Of a stretch of 64,000 nucleotides of DNA, positions 1-11,733 are shown piece after piece. The notes beneath the pieces were generated by a model. That model saw only the letters and a program-made list of their open reading frames with translations. It had not been told where the DNA came from and made no database searches. A program made the translations under genes and the position numbers. Source of the stretch: Oscillospiraceae bacterium. GTDB taxonomy: Bacteria; Bacillota; Clostridia; Oscillospirales; Acutalibacteraceae. Positions within the stretch are counted from its first letter, which is position 1. Each line of letters opens with the position of its first letter. Where the stretch lies: contig SVPL01000007.1 in NCBI GenBank assembly GCA_015065925.1, positions 1 to 64,000 of the forward strand. Direction: 5' to 3'.

Positions 1-109
1 CAAACTTATCCGCGCAGATAATCTCCCTTGTCGTGGTCAATGACTTGGGCTAACGCCGGAAAACCCTTTATTTACGGGCTTTTCCTGTGTTGTTTCTATT
101 ATAACACAC
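1..109. other. Non-homologous flank next to truncated spoIVB (possible element junction)
   Basis: This stretch lies just beyond the stop codon of the SpoIVB-like ORF, where the missing C-terminal part of the peptidase should be encoded. Read on the minus strand after the last codons (GGA ATG) it runs into TGA and then sequence that does not give the expected serine motif in any frame I tried. It holds an AT-rich patch and a hairpin. The abrupt change inside a conserved codon block suggests a rearrangement or the end of an inserted element; the window edge stops me from seeing what lies beyond. The insertion reading is inference. Confidence 0.45.
58..85 (-). terminator. Hairpin beyond spoIVB stop
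   Basis: On the minus strand GGAAAAGCCC and GGGTTTTCC can pair around a 9-nt loop with one bulge. It sits about 25 bases after the spoIVB stop. There is no clear U-run after it, so terminator function is uncertain; it may be a structural part of the foreign flank. Confidence 0.3.
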
Positions 110-1210
110 TCACATTCCCTGCACTATTCCGCCTGTTTTTTGCAACAGCTCATCATCTGTAATCTTAACCACCATATTTTTGGTTACACTATTATTATGG
201 GCGATTTTTTCAATTTTGCATTTATAAAGCTTAGGTGTTGTGCCGTCTATTGTAGTTAAAATTTCTGCATCCCCTACCGAAATTTCCTGTTTAAAGGCTA
301 TTTGGGTTAAACTATTTTTTTCAAACTCCAAATCGCAATTTCCGTAAACGCCCGTATCGTTATTTATTTTAAGATTTGAAAAACATTCTTCCTTAAAGCG
401 TCCAACAAGCTCACCGGGAGCGCCCGCGCTACCTTTATCAACATCCAAAATTTCTGCCTTTACCAGTTCACCCGAATTAATGGTCAACAGCTTGCCTGTA
501 TCTACATCACAAATGCCGTGACCTAGTCCGCAAACCGTTTTAAGGGCGGGACTGTAAAAGGTTAATGTGCCTATTCCCGCGCTACTGTCACGAACCCAAA
601 TTCCCGTTTTATATTTTCCGCTTTGGTAGCATAAAGCGGGTGTAACCTTAACTGTTTTTTCTTTTTCATCGCTTATAATTTTTAAGGTAAGCTCTTTACC
701 CTTTGATGCCTCGATAATACCTGCAACATCTTCGTTGGAATAAACCTTTGTACCGTTTATGGAAATAATTAAATCCCCTTCTTTTAAACCTGCGTCCGCA
801 CCGGGGGAAACCTTACCGTTTTCGGTAGTGACCGAATCTAATCCAACAATCATAACTCCGTCGGTATAAATTTTAATTCCAAAGGGATTACCCAAAACAT
901 AAACATCTGTTTTTGAAACCACATTTACCGATGCCTGTTTTATTGGGAAAATCCCAAAGGCTTTTAATTTTACCGAATAATTTTCGTTTTTATTATTTGA
1001 AATTTTGCTTTCAATTTGACTTTCACCTGAATAAACCGCCTTTATTGGTATTTTGGAATCAAGGGTTAAATTTTCACCGCTTATAACATTAAATTCTTTA
1101 GGTAAAACGGTATTCATATAAGAAATACCGCCGATTACCATAATGCTAAATACGGTTAAAATTGTCATAAAAGCCTTAAAAACACATCCTTTATTTTTGC
1201 TTTTCCACAT
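110..1210 (-). CDS. spoIVB: SpoIVB-type S55 peptidase, truncated before the catalytic serine
   Basis: SpoIVB is the forespore-secreted serine peptidase that triggers pro-SigmaK processing by SpoIVFB. Visible here are an N-terminal membrane segment (about residues 13-32), a PDZ domain (about 105-190, with GLKEGDLIISINGTKV), and the first part of the S55 peptidase domain including the catalytic histidine in GLGHGI (His231). The ORF ends ...TGGIVQGM-stop. In the Bacillus protein this same stretch continues GMSGSP, which carries the catalytic serine, plus some 40 further residues. The product therefore lacks the nucleophile and should be inactive as encoded. It is either a pseudogene or a gene split by a mobile element. 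The RBS is weak-to-fair upstream of ATG. The family call is secure; the reason for the truncation is not. Confidence 0.85.
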   Translation of the reverse strand: MWKSKNKGCVFKAFMTILTVFSIMVIGGISYMNTVLPKEFNVISGENLTLDSKIPIKAVYSGESQIESKISNNKNENYSVKLKAFGIFPIKQASVNVVSKTDVYVLGNPFGIKIYTDGVMIVGLDSVTTENGKVSPGADAGLKEGDLIISINGTKVYSNEDVAGIIEASKGKELTLKIISDEKEKTVKVTPALCYQSGKYKTGIWVRDSSAGIGTLTFYSPALKTVCGLGHGICDVDTGKLLTINSGELVKAEILDVDKGSAGAPGELVGRFKEECFSNLKINNDTGVYGNCDLEFEKNSLTQIAFKQEISVGDAEILTTIDGTTPKLYKCKIEKIAHNNSVTKNMVVKITDDELLQKTGGIVQGM

Positions 1211-1358: not shown

Positions 1359-1655
1359 TTATTCACCATAAAAGAGTCCGTTAATAACACCCTTTTTTCT
1401 GCGTTGTTTTGGCAAATAACCTTCAACCGAAATTAAAATAGAATCGTTGCCTATAACCTCTATTTTATCCCAGGGAATAATTATATCCTCTCCTCTGCCT
1501 AAAAAGCTTATCCCCTTATTTTTACCGCTTATAACAACAGAAGTTAAGGCTCCTGTTTCGGTATCAAACTCAATATCGCTGACAAAACCTACCACAGACG
1601 CATCCTTAATTGATACCACCTGTTTATCTCTAAGCTCTGCAATTCGTGCTATCAT
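1359..1655 (-). CDS. ymxH: YlmC/YmxH family PRC-barrel protein
   Basis: The 98-residue protein has the short beta-rich PRC-barrel fold pattern of the YlmC/YmxH family, which is common and often sporulation-associated in Firmicutes. Recognisable parts are the start MIARIAELRDKQVVSI, the turn GFVSDIEFD, and IIIPWDKIEVIG. It is somewhat longer than the usual 80-85 residues, with a basic KQRRKKG stretch near the C-terminus. Biochemical function is unknown. Its ribosome site GAGGTGA lies in the 3' arm of a hairpin directly upstream (separate entry), which could couple termination or folding to translation. It lies next to spoIVB on the same strand, with about 150 bases between them. Confidence 0.8.
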   Translation of the reverse strand: MIARIAELRDKQVVSIKDASVVGFVSDIEFDTETGALTSVVISGKNKGISFLGRGEDIIIPWDKIEVIGNDSILISVEGYLPKQRRKKGVINGLFYGE

Positions 1656-2264: not shown

Positions 2265-4142
2265 TTAATTTTCTTCGGTAGAGCCGATTGCAAGATTATC
2301 CTCGCTTTGCTCCATGAGCTTAGCAAACTCTTCACCGCTGATTTTCTCTTTGTTATAAAGCTCTTTAGCAATAAGATGGAGCTTAGAAATATCATTCTCT
2401 AAAATTTCTACTGCCTTTGCGTACTGAGTAGAAATAATTGAATTAATTTCGGCATCAATCTCGGCGGCAATTTTCTCTGAATAGTTGGGAGTGGATGAGA
2501 AATCTCTGCCAAGGAATACTTCATTGTTATCGGTACCATAGGTAACGGGGCCGAGTTTTTCACTCATACCATACTTAGTAACCATTTTTCTGGCAATATC
2601 GGTAGCACGCTGCATATCGTTAGATGCACCAGTGCAAATATCCGACTGAGTAATCTGTTCTGCGGCACGACCACCAAGCATAGAACAAATTTCTTCCAAA
2701 AGATAACGCTTGGAAATGTGGCCCTTTTCCTCGGTAGGAATATACATTGTATAACCCGCCGCCATACCTCTTGGAATGATTGAGATTTGATGAACGGGGT
2801 CCTGAGTTTCAAGATGATATGAAACAATTGCGTGACCTGCTTCGTGGTAGGAAGTGATAAGCTTATCTCTATCCTTAATAACGTGAGATTTTTTCTCGGT
2901 ACCCATTACAACCTTAATGGTGGCTTCTTCAACATTCTCCTGAGTAATAGCCTTAAGATTTTGACGGGCGGCAAGCAAAGCAGCCTCATTAAGAAGGTTT
3001 TCAAGGTCTGCGCCCGTAAAGCCTGCAGTAGACTGAGCGATGGTTTTAAGGCTAACATCGGGGCCTAACGGCTTTCCTCTTGCGTGAACCTTAAGAATTT
3101 CCTCACGTCCCTTAACATCGGGATAATTTACTGTAATTTGACGGTCGAAACGACCGGGACGAAGCAAGGCTCTATCCAAAATATCGGGGCGGTTGGTTGC
3201 GGCGATAACAATAACACCTTCGTTAGCACCAAAGCCATCCATTTCAACAAGCAACTGGTTAAGGGTTTGCTCACGCTCATCGTGACCGCCGCCAAGACCT
3301 GCGCCACGCTGACGACCAACAGCATCTATTTCATCAATAAACACAATAGAGGGCGCTGATTTTTTTGCTTGGTCAAAAAGGTCGCGAACACGGGATGCGC
3401 CAACACCTACGAACATTTCAACAAAATCGGAACCCGAAATTGAGAAGAACGGAACATTTGCCTCACCTGCTACAGCACGAGCAAGAAGGGTTTTACCCGT
3501 TCCGGGAGGGCCAACAAGCAATACGCCCTTTGGAATTCTGGCGCCAAGCTCGTTGAATTTAGCAGGTTCTTTAAGGAAGTCAACAAGCTCCTGCATTTCC
3601 TCTTTTTCTTCATCGGCACCCGCAACATCAACAAATGTTGTTTTGCGCTTATCATCGGCGCGTTTAAACTTAGCCTTACCGAAGGAAAGAGATTTATCGG
3701 CACCCATTGAAGCGTTCATCTTACGCATTACAATAATCATAAGAACAACGCCTGCGCCAATAACCAAAATTGTAGGCAATAAGTTGCTTAACCAAGCAGT
3801 TTCATTACCACGCTTATAGTCATATTTAATAAGCTTGGTTTCATCCTTAGCATTTTTGGCATTATGCTCTAAAACAAAATCGTTAACATCATTCCAAAAA
3901 ATGCTGGGATCGGCAATGGTGTATTTATAGGTTTTGCTGTCGGCACGCTTTGTATATTTAAGCTCACCGCTATAAAGATTAAGCTCATACTCCGAAATTT
4001 CGTTGTTTCTAACCATTTCAACAATTTCATAATACTTTGTTTTAACGGCAGGCTCAGTCATTTTTATTATAAAAAGTGAACCGACACATAAAACAATAGG
4101 AATTGTGATGTAAATTAGAATATTTTTGAGTTTACTGTTCAA
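2265..4142 (-). CDS. ftsH: ATP-dependent zinc metalloprotease FtsH
   Basis: FtsH is the membrane-anchored AAA+ protease that degrades misfolded membrane proteins and selected regulators. The 625-residue product has two N-terminal membrane helices (about 8-27 and 118-140) bracketing an extracytoplasmic domain. The AAA domain follows, with Walker A GPPGTGKT (211-218), Walker B IVFIDEID and the second region of homology [20 protein letters not shown]. The M41 peptidase domain has the zinc motif HEAGH (435-439). Length and domain order are normal. It is the last gene of the rnj-gdpP-rplI-dnaB-tilS-hpt-ftsH series; hpt-ftsH adjacency with tilS is classic in Firmicutes. Confidence 0.97.
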
Positions 4143-7838: not shown

Positions 7839-9812
7839 TTAATTTTCCTCCTCGTTTTTATCAATAGCATTTAAAAGTAGCTGTTTTGCTGTATTAAAAT
7901 CCTTTTCATCTAATTGACATGCCGCCATAGTTCTATGACCGCCGCCACCTAATTTTTCCATAATAAGTTGAACATTTACTTCGCCATATGATCTGGCTGA
8001 AATATTCACCTTACCATCAATATGGCTCATTACAAAAGAAGCCTTAACTCCCGATATATTCAAAAGCTCATCAGCAGCTTGTGAAGATATAATGCGCGAT
8101 TGATGGACTTGTAGCTCATCATTTTGGTTAATGGCAATAGCGTAATTTTTATACTGCTCTGCCGTTGCAATAATAGAATTTTTATCCTTATGATGCTCTA
8201 TGGTGTCTGCAAACAGTTTTTTAACCGCAATAGGATCAGCACCCTTTCGGCGCAAAAAGGCAGATGCCTCAAAGGTGCGAACACCCGTATTCATACAGTA
8301 GCCTCTGGTATCTAGCATAATACCTGCAAGCATTGCCTCAGCCTGAGTTTTGCCAACTGCCGCTTCGCTTATATACTGTAAAAGCTCACAAACCATTTCT
8401 GAAGCCGACGAAGCAGATGTTTCGTGATAAAAAATAACCGAGTTTGCAATATGGTCAACCGATTTTCGGTGATGGTCTATAACAACTACATTGCTGATGT
8501 TATTAAGTGCGTCGGCGTATTCAAGCATTTGACACCTATGAGTATCCAAAACAATAAGCAAGGTATTTTTGGTTATTAAATGTTCAATGGTGCGATAATC
8601 GGTGATCATTAAATCCCCGCCCAAGGCAGTTATTCTTTCAAACAAAGGGCCAACCAAAGCTGTTTTTTTATCCATTGCTATTACAGCGGGGGTATCGGTA
8701 TGCTTGCGGATTGCCGAGCAAAGAGCGTATGCCGCGCCATAGCAATCCAAATCGGCAAATTTGTGTCCCATTAAAATGACCTGATCGCTGTTGTTAATAA
8801 GCTCTAATAAAGCAGATGCAACTATTCTTGTTCTTACCCTTGTACGCTTTTCATTAGAGTTTGAAATACCGCCAAAGAACTGAAAAGAATTATCCTTTTT
8901 CTTAATTGCAACCTGATCTCCGCCTCTGCCGAGTGCCATATCAAGGGCTTGAGCAGCCTGTTCTTCACATTCTCTAAAGGTGTTTCCGCGACCTATGCCG
9001 ATTGAAATGGTTGCCCTTCCCTTCTCTCCAAAATCAATTGAGCGAACTCTGTTTAATATTTCAAATTTATTTGATGTAAAGGAAATTAAATCCCTTTCTT
9101 CAAAAATAAACAAATATCTTTCGCCCGACAATTTTCGACTTATACCGTTAGATGTTGAAAACCAATCTTCTAAAATATTTTGGATTTTAGAGCTTACATT
9201 ATTACGCTCGCTGTCACGCATATTATGGGTTAAATCATCCAAATTATCTATAACAATAAATGCCGCAACAGGTCTGCTAAGCTTATATTCAGAAGCGGTT
9301 TTTCTAAGATTTGTTAAATCAATAAAACAAAGTATTCGTTGGGTTGTGGAATTTAATGTATATTCGGTTTCATATACATCAAAAATTTTATTTGCATACG
9401 AAACATTGGCATAGTGTGATTTTTTTAGTTCCTCCATACCCTTTGTTCCAACAACATCTATCAAGGTTTCGCCTATAAGAAGATCAGCCTCATTATTTAT
9501 CGTTTCAAAAAAGCAATCATTAAACCAAATAATCTCATCATTTTGCGAAACAATTAATACGGGAAGATTAAAGTCCGAAAGAGTGTTTGAAGCGGTATTA
9601 TCATTTTCATCATTAATAGAACCGATTAAATCGTGTAGCTTTTGCTTTACTGTGAAAATTTTTACAAAAGTGATTATTGCAAGCACCGCAAACAAAGCCA
9701 AAGAGATATAAAAAAATGTTTGTGATAAAAAGAATAGCAAGACGGTCTGCACCGCAGAAAACGCAAGTAAAACTATATATAAAAAATTAAAATTCCAAAG
9801 CTTTTTAAACAC
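7839..9812 (-). CDS. gdpP: Cyclic-di-AMP phosphodiesterase GdpP
   Basis: GdpP hydrolyses c-di-AMP to pApA and controls potassium and cell-wall homeostasis. The 657-residue protein has two N-terminal membrane helices (about 8-52), a PAS-like domain (about 75-170), a degenerate GGDEF domain (about 175-305; the signature position reads [11 protein letters not shown], so no diguanylate cyclase activity is expected), then DHH (DTHR, DHHR) and DHHA1 ([10 protein letters not shown]) domains carrying the metal site. This is the full family architecture. The start is a GTG with GGAGG 8 bases upstream. The gdpP-rplI-dnaB order is conserved in Firmicutes. Confidence 0.95.
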
Positions 9813-9834
9813 AGAGCAGACCTCCTTTAACTAA

Positions 9835-11733
9835 TTATACTTCCATTATAATGGGCAATACCATAGGACTTCTTCTTGTTCTTTCGTGAAGGAATTTAGA
9901 AACATTATCACGAACACGGGATTTAATTGAGCTCCAATCGTGAACACCGTTTAAATAGCAAAATTCAATTGCTTTACAGGCGGCTTCGGTAATCTCCTCC
10001 ATAAGTTCTTCAGATTCTTTAACATATACAAATCCGCGAGAAACAACCTCGGGTCCTGCAATTACCTCACGGGTTGCTGAATCCATAGTCATAACCACAA
10101 CAATAACACCATCCTCGGCAAGATGCTTTCTGTCACGAAGGACAATATTACCAACATCACCCACACCAAGTCCGTCAACCAAAATACGACCTGCAGGAAC
10201 GGTTTCGGTTATTGCCATTTTATTTTCGCTAAGCTCAATTGTACTTCCTATACCTGTTATCATAATATTTTCAGTAGGAATTCCCATAGTAAGTGCTAAG
10301 CCTGCGTGTTTATACAAATGCTTTTGCTCACCATGTACGGGAATGAAATATTTGGGCTTAACAAGATTTAACATTAATTTAAGCTCTTCCTGACAAGCGT
10401 GACCTGAAACATGAACATCATACATTTTTTCGTAAACCACAGTTGCGCCCTGCTTCATAAGCTCATTAACAACCTTGCCAACAAGCTTTTCATTTCCGGG
10501 TATGGGGGTTGCCGAAATAATTATAAGGTCACCCGAAACAATACCAACCTGACGGTGATCGCCAAAAGCCATTCTATGAAGCGCAGATAAGGGCTCACCT
10601 TGGCTACCTGTTGTAACAACAACAATCTGTTCGGGAAGGTATCTGTTTATCATATCAATATCAATCAAAATACCTTCGGGAACATTTAAATATCCAAGCT
10701 CGGAAGCAACAGATACAACATTAATCATACTTCTGCCCGAAACCGCAACCTTTCTGCCGCAACGGTAGGCTTCGTCGATTATTTGTTGAATTCTGTGGAT
10801 ATTTGATGAAAATGTTGCAACAATAATTCTTCCCTTTTCCGCCTTTTTAAAAAGGGTTGAAAAGGATTCGCCAACTATTTTTTCCGAAGATGTATAACCC
10901 GGTCTTTCGGCGTTTGTGGAATCGGAAAGCAGAGCCAAAACACCCTTATTACCAAGCTCGGCAAATCTGCCTAAATCAATTATATTTGAGTCAATCGGTG
11001 TTGTATCAATCTTAAAATCGCCCGTTTGAATAATTACACCTGCAGGTGTTTTTATAGCAACGGCAACCGCATCGGGAATTGAATGGTTAACATGAATAAA
11101 TTCAATTGAGAATTTGCCTAAACTGATGGTATCTCCCGCTTTAACAACATTTAAATCAGCGGTATTCATAAGCTTATGCTCTTTTAACTTACCCTCAATT
11201 AAGCCTAAGGTAAGGCGTGTACCGTAAATGGGCAAATTAAAGTTTTTAAGCAAATACGGAATAGCGCCTATATGGTCCTCGTGACCGTGAGTTACAACCA
11301 AGCCTTTAATTTTATCCTTATTATTTATAACATAGGTGAAATCAGGGATAACTATATCAATACCGGGAGTTTCCTCATCGGGAAAGGTCATACCGCAATC
11401 CACCAAAAACATATCTCCATCATATTCATAAAGGGTAATATTTTTTCCTATTTCACCCAAACCGCCCAAAGGAATTATTTTTATTGGTTTTATCTTCTTT
11501 TGGCTTTTGCCCGTATTTTTTTCAGGCAAAGTTTTATCGGATTTTTTTACTTTATTATAACTTTTTTTATTGTTTGTTGCTGAATTGCTTTTCTTTGTTG
11601 GTTTAGAAGTATTTTTAGACATTTTGGAATTGTTTTTATTTTTAGAAGCAATGCTTTTATCCATATTCTTCTTATTATTCTTTATGGGTTTGCTTTTTTC
11701 TTCATTACTGTTCTTCTTTTGAGTTTTTGGCAT
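9835..11733 (-). CDS. rnj: Ribonuclease J
   Basis: RNase J is a metallo-beta-lactamase/beta-CASP nuclease with endonuclease and 5'-3' exonuclease activity in mRNA decay and rRNA maturation. The core begins near residue 82 (KIIPLGGLGEIGKN); the zinc motif THGHEDH is at 148-154, and the GDFKID and PVHGEQKHLY motifs follow. The first 80 or so residues are an unusual extension almost wholly of Lys, Asn, Ser and Thr, likely disordered and RNA-binding. The start is supported by GGAGGTT 6 bases upstream of ATG. It is the first gene of the operon leading through gdpP to ftsH, with a strong promoter upstream. Confidence 0.95.
   Translation of the reverse strand: MPKTQKKNSNEEKSKPIKNNKKNMDKSIASKNKNNSKMSKNTSKPTKKSNSATNNKKSYNKVKKSDKTLPEKNTGKSQKKIKPIKIIPLGGLGEIGKNITLYEYDGDMFLVDCGMTFPDEETPGIDIVIPDFTYVINNKDKIKGLVVTHGHEDHIGAIPYLLKNFNLPIYGTRLTLGLIEGKLKEHKLMNTADLNVVKAGDTISLGKFSIEFIHVNHSIPDAVAVAIKTPAGVIIQTGDFKIDTTPIDSNIIDLGRFAELGNKGVLALLSDSTNAERPGYTSSEKIVGESFSTLFKKAEKGRIIVATFSSNIHRIQQIIDEAYRCGRKVAVSGRSMINVVSVASELGYLNVPEGILIDIDMINRYLPEQIVVVTTGSQGEPLSALHRMAFGDHRQVGIVSGDLIIISATPIPGNEKLVGKVVNELMKQGATVVYEKMYDVHVSGHACQEELKLMLNLVKPKYFIPVHGEQKHLYKHAGLALTMGIPTENIMITGIGSTIELSENKMAITETVPAGRILVDGLGVGDVGNIVLRDRKHLAEDGVIVVVMTMDSATREVIAGPEVVSRGFVYVKESEELMEEITEAACKAIEFCYLNGVHDWSSIKSRVRDNVSKFLHERTRRSPMVLPIIMEV

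Follow-up and report, generated by a model that had tools for sequence, protein, structure and literature searches.

A putative mobile element inserted at the catalytic codons of the sporulation gene spoIVB in Oscillospiraceae and related Clostridia

The window (the whole 64,000-nucleotide stretch of DNA analyzed here) most probably starts inside an integrated mobile element, in its left end, for which a large-serine-recombinase site in spoIVB served as the point of entry, a reading to which we assign a probability of about 0.92. It corresponds to contig C96 of the source draft genome (G000; 96 contigs, 2.57 Mb, 86% complete), and the DNA to which its spoIVB is joined was recovered behind the same codon in 12 other genome records.

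The split gene and its recurrence

The ORF at the start of the window was identified as SpoIVB peptidase by profile search (TIGR02860, 311.5 bits vs. a cut-off of 305). Its reading frame was open across the N-terminal region, the PDZ domain, and the protease domain and ended in GGIVQGM-TGA, while the match to Pfam S55 (PF05580) covered profile positions 2-175 of 210 and then stopped, in agreement with the original prediction that the gene is cut directly before its catalytic GMSGSP block. The final ~50 codons were missing from the window copy, as was the catalytic Ser (SGSP). Judged by the motif of the family, the next codon after the break would be that of the catalytic Ser. In Bacillus subtilis SpoIVB the catalytic residue is Ser378 (PMC6581720). 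The window copy of spoIVB was closest to that of a congener (G092, 51% identity). Additionally, ORFs resembling the YlmC-type gene were seen by eye upstream of spoIVB in loci L020, L021, L022, and L024, and because this gene thus precedes spoIVB in related genomes too, the window copy appears to occupy the native spoIVB locus.

Table 1. Features at the start of the window (all on the reverse strand).
Feature	Positions	Strand	Remarks
Left end of the putative inserted mobile element	1..112	-	contig end leaves 112 bp; identical over 89-114 bp in six host genomes
Left arm of imperfect inverted repeat (25 bp), TGAGTGTGTTATAATAGAAACAACA	88..112	-	mirrors the right end on contig C79, TTGTTG...TTGACACACTCG
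Putative crossover dinucleotide TG	113..114	-	last two bases of the Met codon in GM/SGSP; between-host identity switches here; centre of the reconstructed attP dyad
5′ part of spoIVB	110..1210	-	ORF of 366 codons plus element-supplied TGA
YlmC/YmxH-like (PRC-barrel-type) gene	1359..1655	-	immediately upstream of spoIVB

A scan of 85,462 species genomes recovered the left-end sequence at 12 loci, and all 12 were spoIVB cut after GGIVQGM. The hosts comprised 11 metagenome-assembled genomes and one strain record (Bacterium D16-76), mostly Oscillospiraceae alongside other Clostridia and one Lachnospiraceae; two of them carry duplicate records (G118 is L049/SIG588, and G217 is L050/D16-76). Only the 5′ part of spoIVB was present in these genomes, with a complete copy in none of the 12 and at least one orphan tail in six. 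All 13 five-prime parts were open, without stops.

The boundary between gene and inserted DNA was sharp. Among G000, G118, SIG580, SIG499, SIG584, and SIG306, the sequence was identical along the left end, and the preceding 105 bp of spoIVB were 44-59% identical; in the boundary test, left ends were 98-100% identical vs. 41-70% for the 105 bp of spoIVB before them. At the opposite side, the right end from the source genome matched those of G118 and G302 without a difference for 91-108 bp and reached 99% identity with that of G305, and the adjoining tails were 62-71% identical. The same spoIVB codon is thus joined to the same DNA in the source genome and in 12 further records, bearing out the earlier claim of an insertion junction, and a point nonsense mutation is ruled out since the DNA past the junction is common to several genera. 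By these comparisons, spoIVB is a recurrent landing site for a putative element family whose members would all cut at the same dinucleotide, in many gut bacteria unrelated to one another.

An assembly break at position 1 had been named as a possible source of artefact. The break is indeed present, window base 1 being the end of contig C96 and lying 112 bp beyond the junction inside the inserted DNA, but it does not create the junction, since 12 further genome records show the identical join. That the window begins at a contig end is also why no continuation of the gene had been met. Most metagenome contigs ended 42-125 bp into the element, as is expected where several species share the same element.

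In one host, G306, chromosomal-looking genes (DUF2628-like, nrdR, ABC-F) lay within about 300 bp of the left end (loci L046/L095, contig C46), and the recombinase triplet and tail were on a different contig from the left end, together with an IS30-like transposase; its element copy seems to have been rearranged or partly deleted, with chromosomal-looking genes following the left end. Separately, spoIVB in locus L121 (MT835781.1, base 13375) read GGIVQGN before SGSP, where GGIVQGM is usual.

Element ends, displaced tails, and recombinases

The remaining spoIVB codons, for which the original prediction had proposed a search, were recovered elsewhere in the source genome as two orphan tails on contig C79 (119-274 and 4011-4166), where Pfam S55 profile positions 175-210 matched at 119-226 and 4011-4118. 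Loss of the missing part from the whole genome is thereby ruled out. Both tails had open reading frames and both were directly preceded by TTGACACACTCGTG, the mirror-image element end, which is a near mirror image of the post-break window sequence TGTGAGTGTGTTATAATAG. The two ends were located on separate contigs (C96 and C79), leaving 112 bp of the element visible on the left and about 108 bp on the right. The spo0A gene, sought in the same connection, was on contig C73, unlinked to any spoIVB piece.

A second, complete spoIVB (415 aa) was present in the source genome on a 3.6-kb contig (C50, 1925-3172; locus L006), where it adjoined the C-terminal part of a probable tyrosine recombinase and was apart from the genes that usually flank spoIVB. 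It was 59% identical to the gene of SIG584, from another rumen lineage, vs. 47% to the window copy. Given its affinity to another lineage and the lack of a YlmC-type gene nearby, this gene is either foreign, perhaps as a mobile copy of spoIVB, or a contaminant from binning, and a second complete copy, which would have argued for a simple pseudogene in the window, does not carry that meaning here.

In a consensus of 33 right ends and five distinct left ends, 21 of 25 arm positions matched around a central TG, a value reached in none of 100,000 shuffles. When joined, the two consensus ends would form a reconstructed site of about 50 bp with the form typical of a serine-integrase attP. The junctions showed no target duplication beyond the shared TG, joining both flanks would restore the spoIVB reading frame, and the restriction to a single fixed spoIVB codon marked the insertion as site-specific with a short core. 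No intact attP or circular form was found, the left-end and attP patterns had no match in IMG/VR, and none of the records found held both element ends. The right-end pattern had only one other match among 250 family genomes, in G030, which was rejected as chance since it fell inside a ribosomal protein gene.

Recombinase genes were located in better-assembled relatives. Specifically, in G217 (D16-76) the right end and the spoIVB tail were immediately preceded by genes for three large serine recombinases (547, 564, and 536 aa), each containing the resolvase, recombinase, and zinc-ribbon domains (PF00239, PF07508, and PF13408). The triplet held this position in six records: G217, G306, MT836038.1 (a human-gut record), L068 and L069 (both IMG/VR contigs), and L127/L070. 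The corresponding region of the source genome was unassembled, as was the rest of the element interior, and no recombinase of the triplet family was found in its assembled contigs. Together with the attP-like dyad around TG, the triplet beside the right end in relatives corroborated the earlier suggestion of a serine or tyrosine recombinase, and pointed to a site of the serine-recombinase type. For most triplet recombinases the best NCBIfam model was that of the fdxN element recombinase XisF, at 83-117 bits vs. a cut-off of 375; scores against Ccr models were far below cut-off, and within the best matches the closest plasmid recombinase was 32% identical and the closest phage recombinase 48%. 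A SpoIVB tail was present in ten phage records; in nine of them it belonged to a complete chromosomal spoIVB in a contig labelled as phage, and MT836038.1 was the only genuine right end.

Contigs L068 and L069 did not differ in the 6586 bp leading to the TG, beyond which their tails were only 68% identical; this points to one element in two hosts. Upstream of the triplet in G217 were sigma-like, ParM-like actin, primase-like, YqaJ, ParB-like, and ParA genes, and L127 repeated much of this order (primase-like, ParM-like, sigma-like, triplet). These plasmid-type maintenance genes suggest that the element is plasmid- or ICE-like; no conjugation module (relaxase, coupling protein, VirB4) was seen in about 20 kb of G217. 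In L069, another serine recombinase gene started just behind the spoIVB tail, 271-1302 bp past the right-end core, which suggests a second element inserted beside the first.

Displaced spoIVB tails cut at the same place were found in about 20 of 300 family genomes. Many of these tails followed in tandem 1-13 kb behind a complete spoIVB (G186, G198, G075, G126, G254, G290, and G049), in array units whose cargo included regulators, lipoproteins, and sugar genes. The array cassettes had no left end, and ORF inspection revealed no recombinase gene in the units. In G109, the outermost displaced tail lay directly before spo0A, the gene that follows spoIVB in several unrearranged related contigs. Tails within a genome differed mainly at synonymous sites (synonymous to nonsynonymous 15:3 in G000, and 22:2 and 20:2 in others), indicating that they stem from working spoIVB genes, and their divergence probably arose in different lineages. 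Decayed displaced tails, with stops or truncations, were present in G109, G191, and G131. In a further locus (L037, G139:C10:56000-66719), serine recombinase fragments were observed at 8981-10522, near displaced spoIVB tails.

Proposed mechanism and effect on the host

We propose that crossover takes place at the TG of the Met codon preceding the catalytic Ser, whereby the 5′ part fused to the element in the window would be attL, and the 3′ tail behind the right end on contig C79 would be attR. The element of the source genome would belong to the family in which three large serine recombinases lie side by side next to attR, and of which better-assembled members also carry plasmid-type maintenance genes (ParA, ParM-like, primase-like), and it presumably carries such a triplet in its own interior. 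Integration and excision would be the work of one or more of these recombinases, spoIVB would be whole and in frame again after precise excision, and the element may move by conjugation or mobilisation. The arrays behind intact spoIVB would take an extra step, as the residue of successive integrations and excisions or of exchange between attR-type sites. Given two right ends, an element could leave with a tail and cargo and enter a new host, in which excision from the first right end only would yield intact spoIVB with a new tail, followed by cargo, a right end, and the old tail. Alternatively, arrays could arise if attR-type sites recombined with one another, an activity that work cited in PMC5595907 reports for the Ccr recombinases of SCC.

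Two accounts of what the split means for the host, sporulation loss and programmed excision, are both compatible with the insertion being a mobile element. The former, in which the element landed in spoIVB of rarely sporulating lineages and the gene is dead, we regard as a serious contender at somewhat under even odds. It accords with the 12 host records that have a split copy only, with the 50 of 300 family genomes in which spoIVB was not detectable (it was detected in the other 250), and with the spore protease GPR, which went undetected in seven of the 13 split genomes. Against it, the five-prime parts are undecayed, and functionless displaced tails do decay (G109, G191, and G131), yet both tails of the source genome are open.

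In the latter account, the insertion is a skin-like intervening element that is excised during sporulation, so that spoIVB is rebuilt in a host that still sporulates and for which a split gene is the normal state. The single fixed site with parts that join in frame, the 13 open five-prime parts, and the lack of a second full spoIVB in the 12 split scan genomes would all suit such an element, and skin, SP-beta, and gin likewise use serine recombinases, of which gin in gerE has three (PMC5595907). However, SpoIVB is produced in the forespore in B. subtilis (PMC12251134), and excision there would drop the element from the spores and so remove it from the surviving lineage unless it was re-integrated, whereas excision in the known cases is confined to the mother cell; earlier published intervening elements are described as residing in mother-cell genes, such that the spore genome keeps the element (PMC4191935). 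Moreover, left ends identical across genera indicate recent insertions, such that the intact 5′ reading frames need no explanation, and sporulation ability is itself uncertain, with GPR found in six of the 13 hosts. We therefore consider the skin-like account unlikely. The wider pattern of many genera, three recombinases, plasmid-type genes, and tail arrays fits an ordinary mobile element with an insertion site in spoIVB at least as well.

A more elaborate variant appears improbable to us. It would combine a reversible forespore-gene switch, in which the element is excised in some cells, spoIVB is rebuilt, and the element is re-integrated, with cassettes run by the same recombinases that bring cargo and a replacement catalytic tail, and the gene would stay usable as cargo accumulates.

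A chimeric join from assembly or binning could draw on the position of the junction near the contig end, on the many metagenome contigs that stop just inside the element, and on the fragmented state of the draft, but the same join recurs in 12 further records (among them that of strain D16-76) contributed by several projects, and right-end joins occur in independent human-gut and IMG/VR records; this reading is highly improbable for the window and already refuted for the element family as a whole. Equally remote is a transposon or IS that chose the site by means of its terminal inverted repeats, since the element ends are indeed inverted repeats but the target duplication does not exceed the shared TG, a single fixed codon is used in at least 13 genome records, and serine recombinases lie beside one end.

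Another sporulation gene of the source genome was noted on contig C10 (3-2138; locus L018), where a different large serine recombinase gene ended at base 1505 and was directly followed by cwlD, encoding the spore cortex amidase. Here, cwlD lacked its 5′ codons and a start codon, its first recognisable residues being AHGGFDGGAV, and it seems to be a second gene split by a recombinase element.

Significance and relation to known systems

We found no paper in the open-access literature, searched by title and abstract start, that links spoIVB to a serine recombinase or describes it as a prophage or ICE target, and spoIVB is absent from the intervening-element lists in PMC4191935 and PMC10747680. 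The original expectation that spoIVB would be a new target thus has no earlier report against it. As far as checked, novelty lies in the target gene, in the insertion point at its catalytic codons, in the spread, and in the tail-bearing arrays. In Clostridia of the gut and rumen, the codons around the catalytic Ser would constitute a hot spot at which integration recurs, and the near-identical element ends in distant genera point to recent mobile traffic. For annotation, SpoIVB truncated at GM-stop and orphan SGSP tails would be better read as attachment sites than as random pseudogenes. The question raised is whether hosts with split spoIVB sporulate and, if so, how a forespore gene is rebuilt and the element kept.

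Precedents exist feature by feature, in triplet-integrase ICEs, gin, and SCC. Streptococcal ICEs with a serine-integrase triplet (ICE_mutT, ICE_hsdM, and ICE_traG; PMC4701971) resemble the spoIVB element in having three adjacent serine integrases near one end and in site-specific insertion that disrupts a protein gene, with short direct repeats (2-8 bp). They differ in that the target here is spoIVB in Oscillospiraceae and relatives and that no conjugation module was seen in the stretches covered; for the tail arrays behind an intact gene, no reported counterpart was found in the literature covered.

Like the spoIVB element, gin (in gerE of Bacillus cereus; PMC5595907), skin, SP-beta, vfbin, and yin split a sporulation gene in frame at a serine-recombinase site with inverted-repeat arms. 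The three serine recombinases of gin are arranged as two in an operon and a third apart, whereas all three are adjacent in the spoIVB element. Known targets of the gin/skin type are mother-cell genes, with excision shown for several, while spoIVB is, in B. subtilis, a forespore gene, and excision of its element is putative. The fdxN element of Anabaena (XisF) shares no more than the recombinase superfamily with the triplet.

SCC, which inserts at rlmH through CcrA/CcrB/CcrC, shares with the spoIVB system a conserved target gene, several serine recombinases, and tandem composite arrays. In SCC, the target gene rlmH is kept intact by an imported 3′ end, which is similar to what is seen in the spoIVB arrays. 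The systems differ in their targets and in their recombinases, those of the triplet scoring far below the Ccr model cut-offs, and also in that the imported 3′ piece at spoIVB comprises ~50 codons including the catalytic Ser and the array units encode no recombinase. With their cargo and displaced tails, the spoIVB arrays nevertheless look like an SCC-like gene-capture site outside staphylococci.
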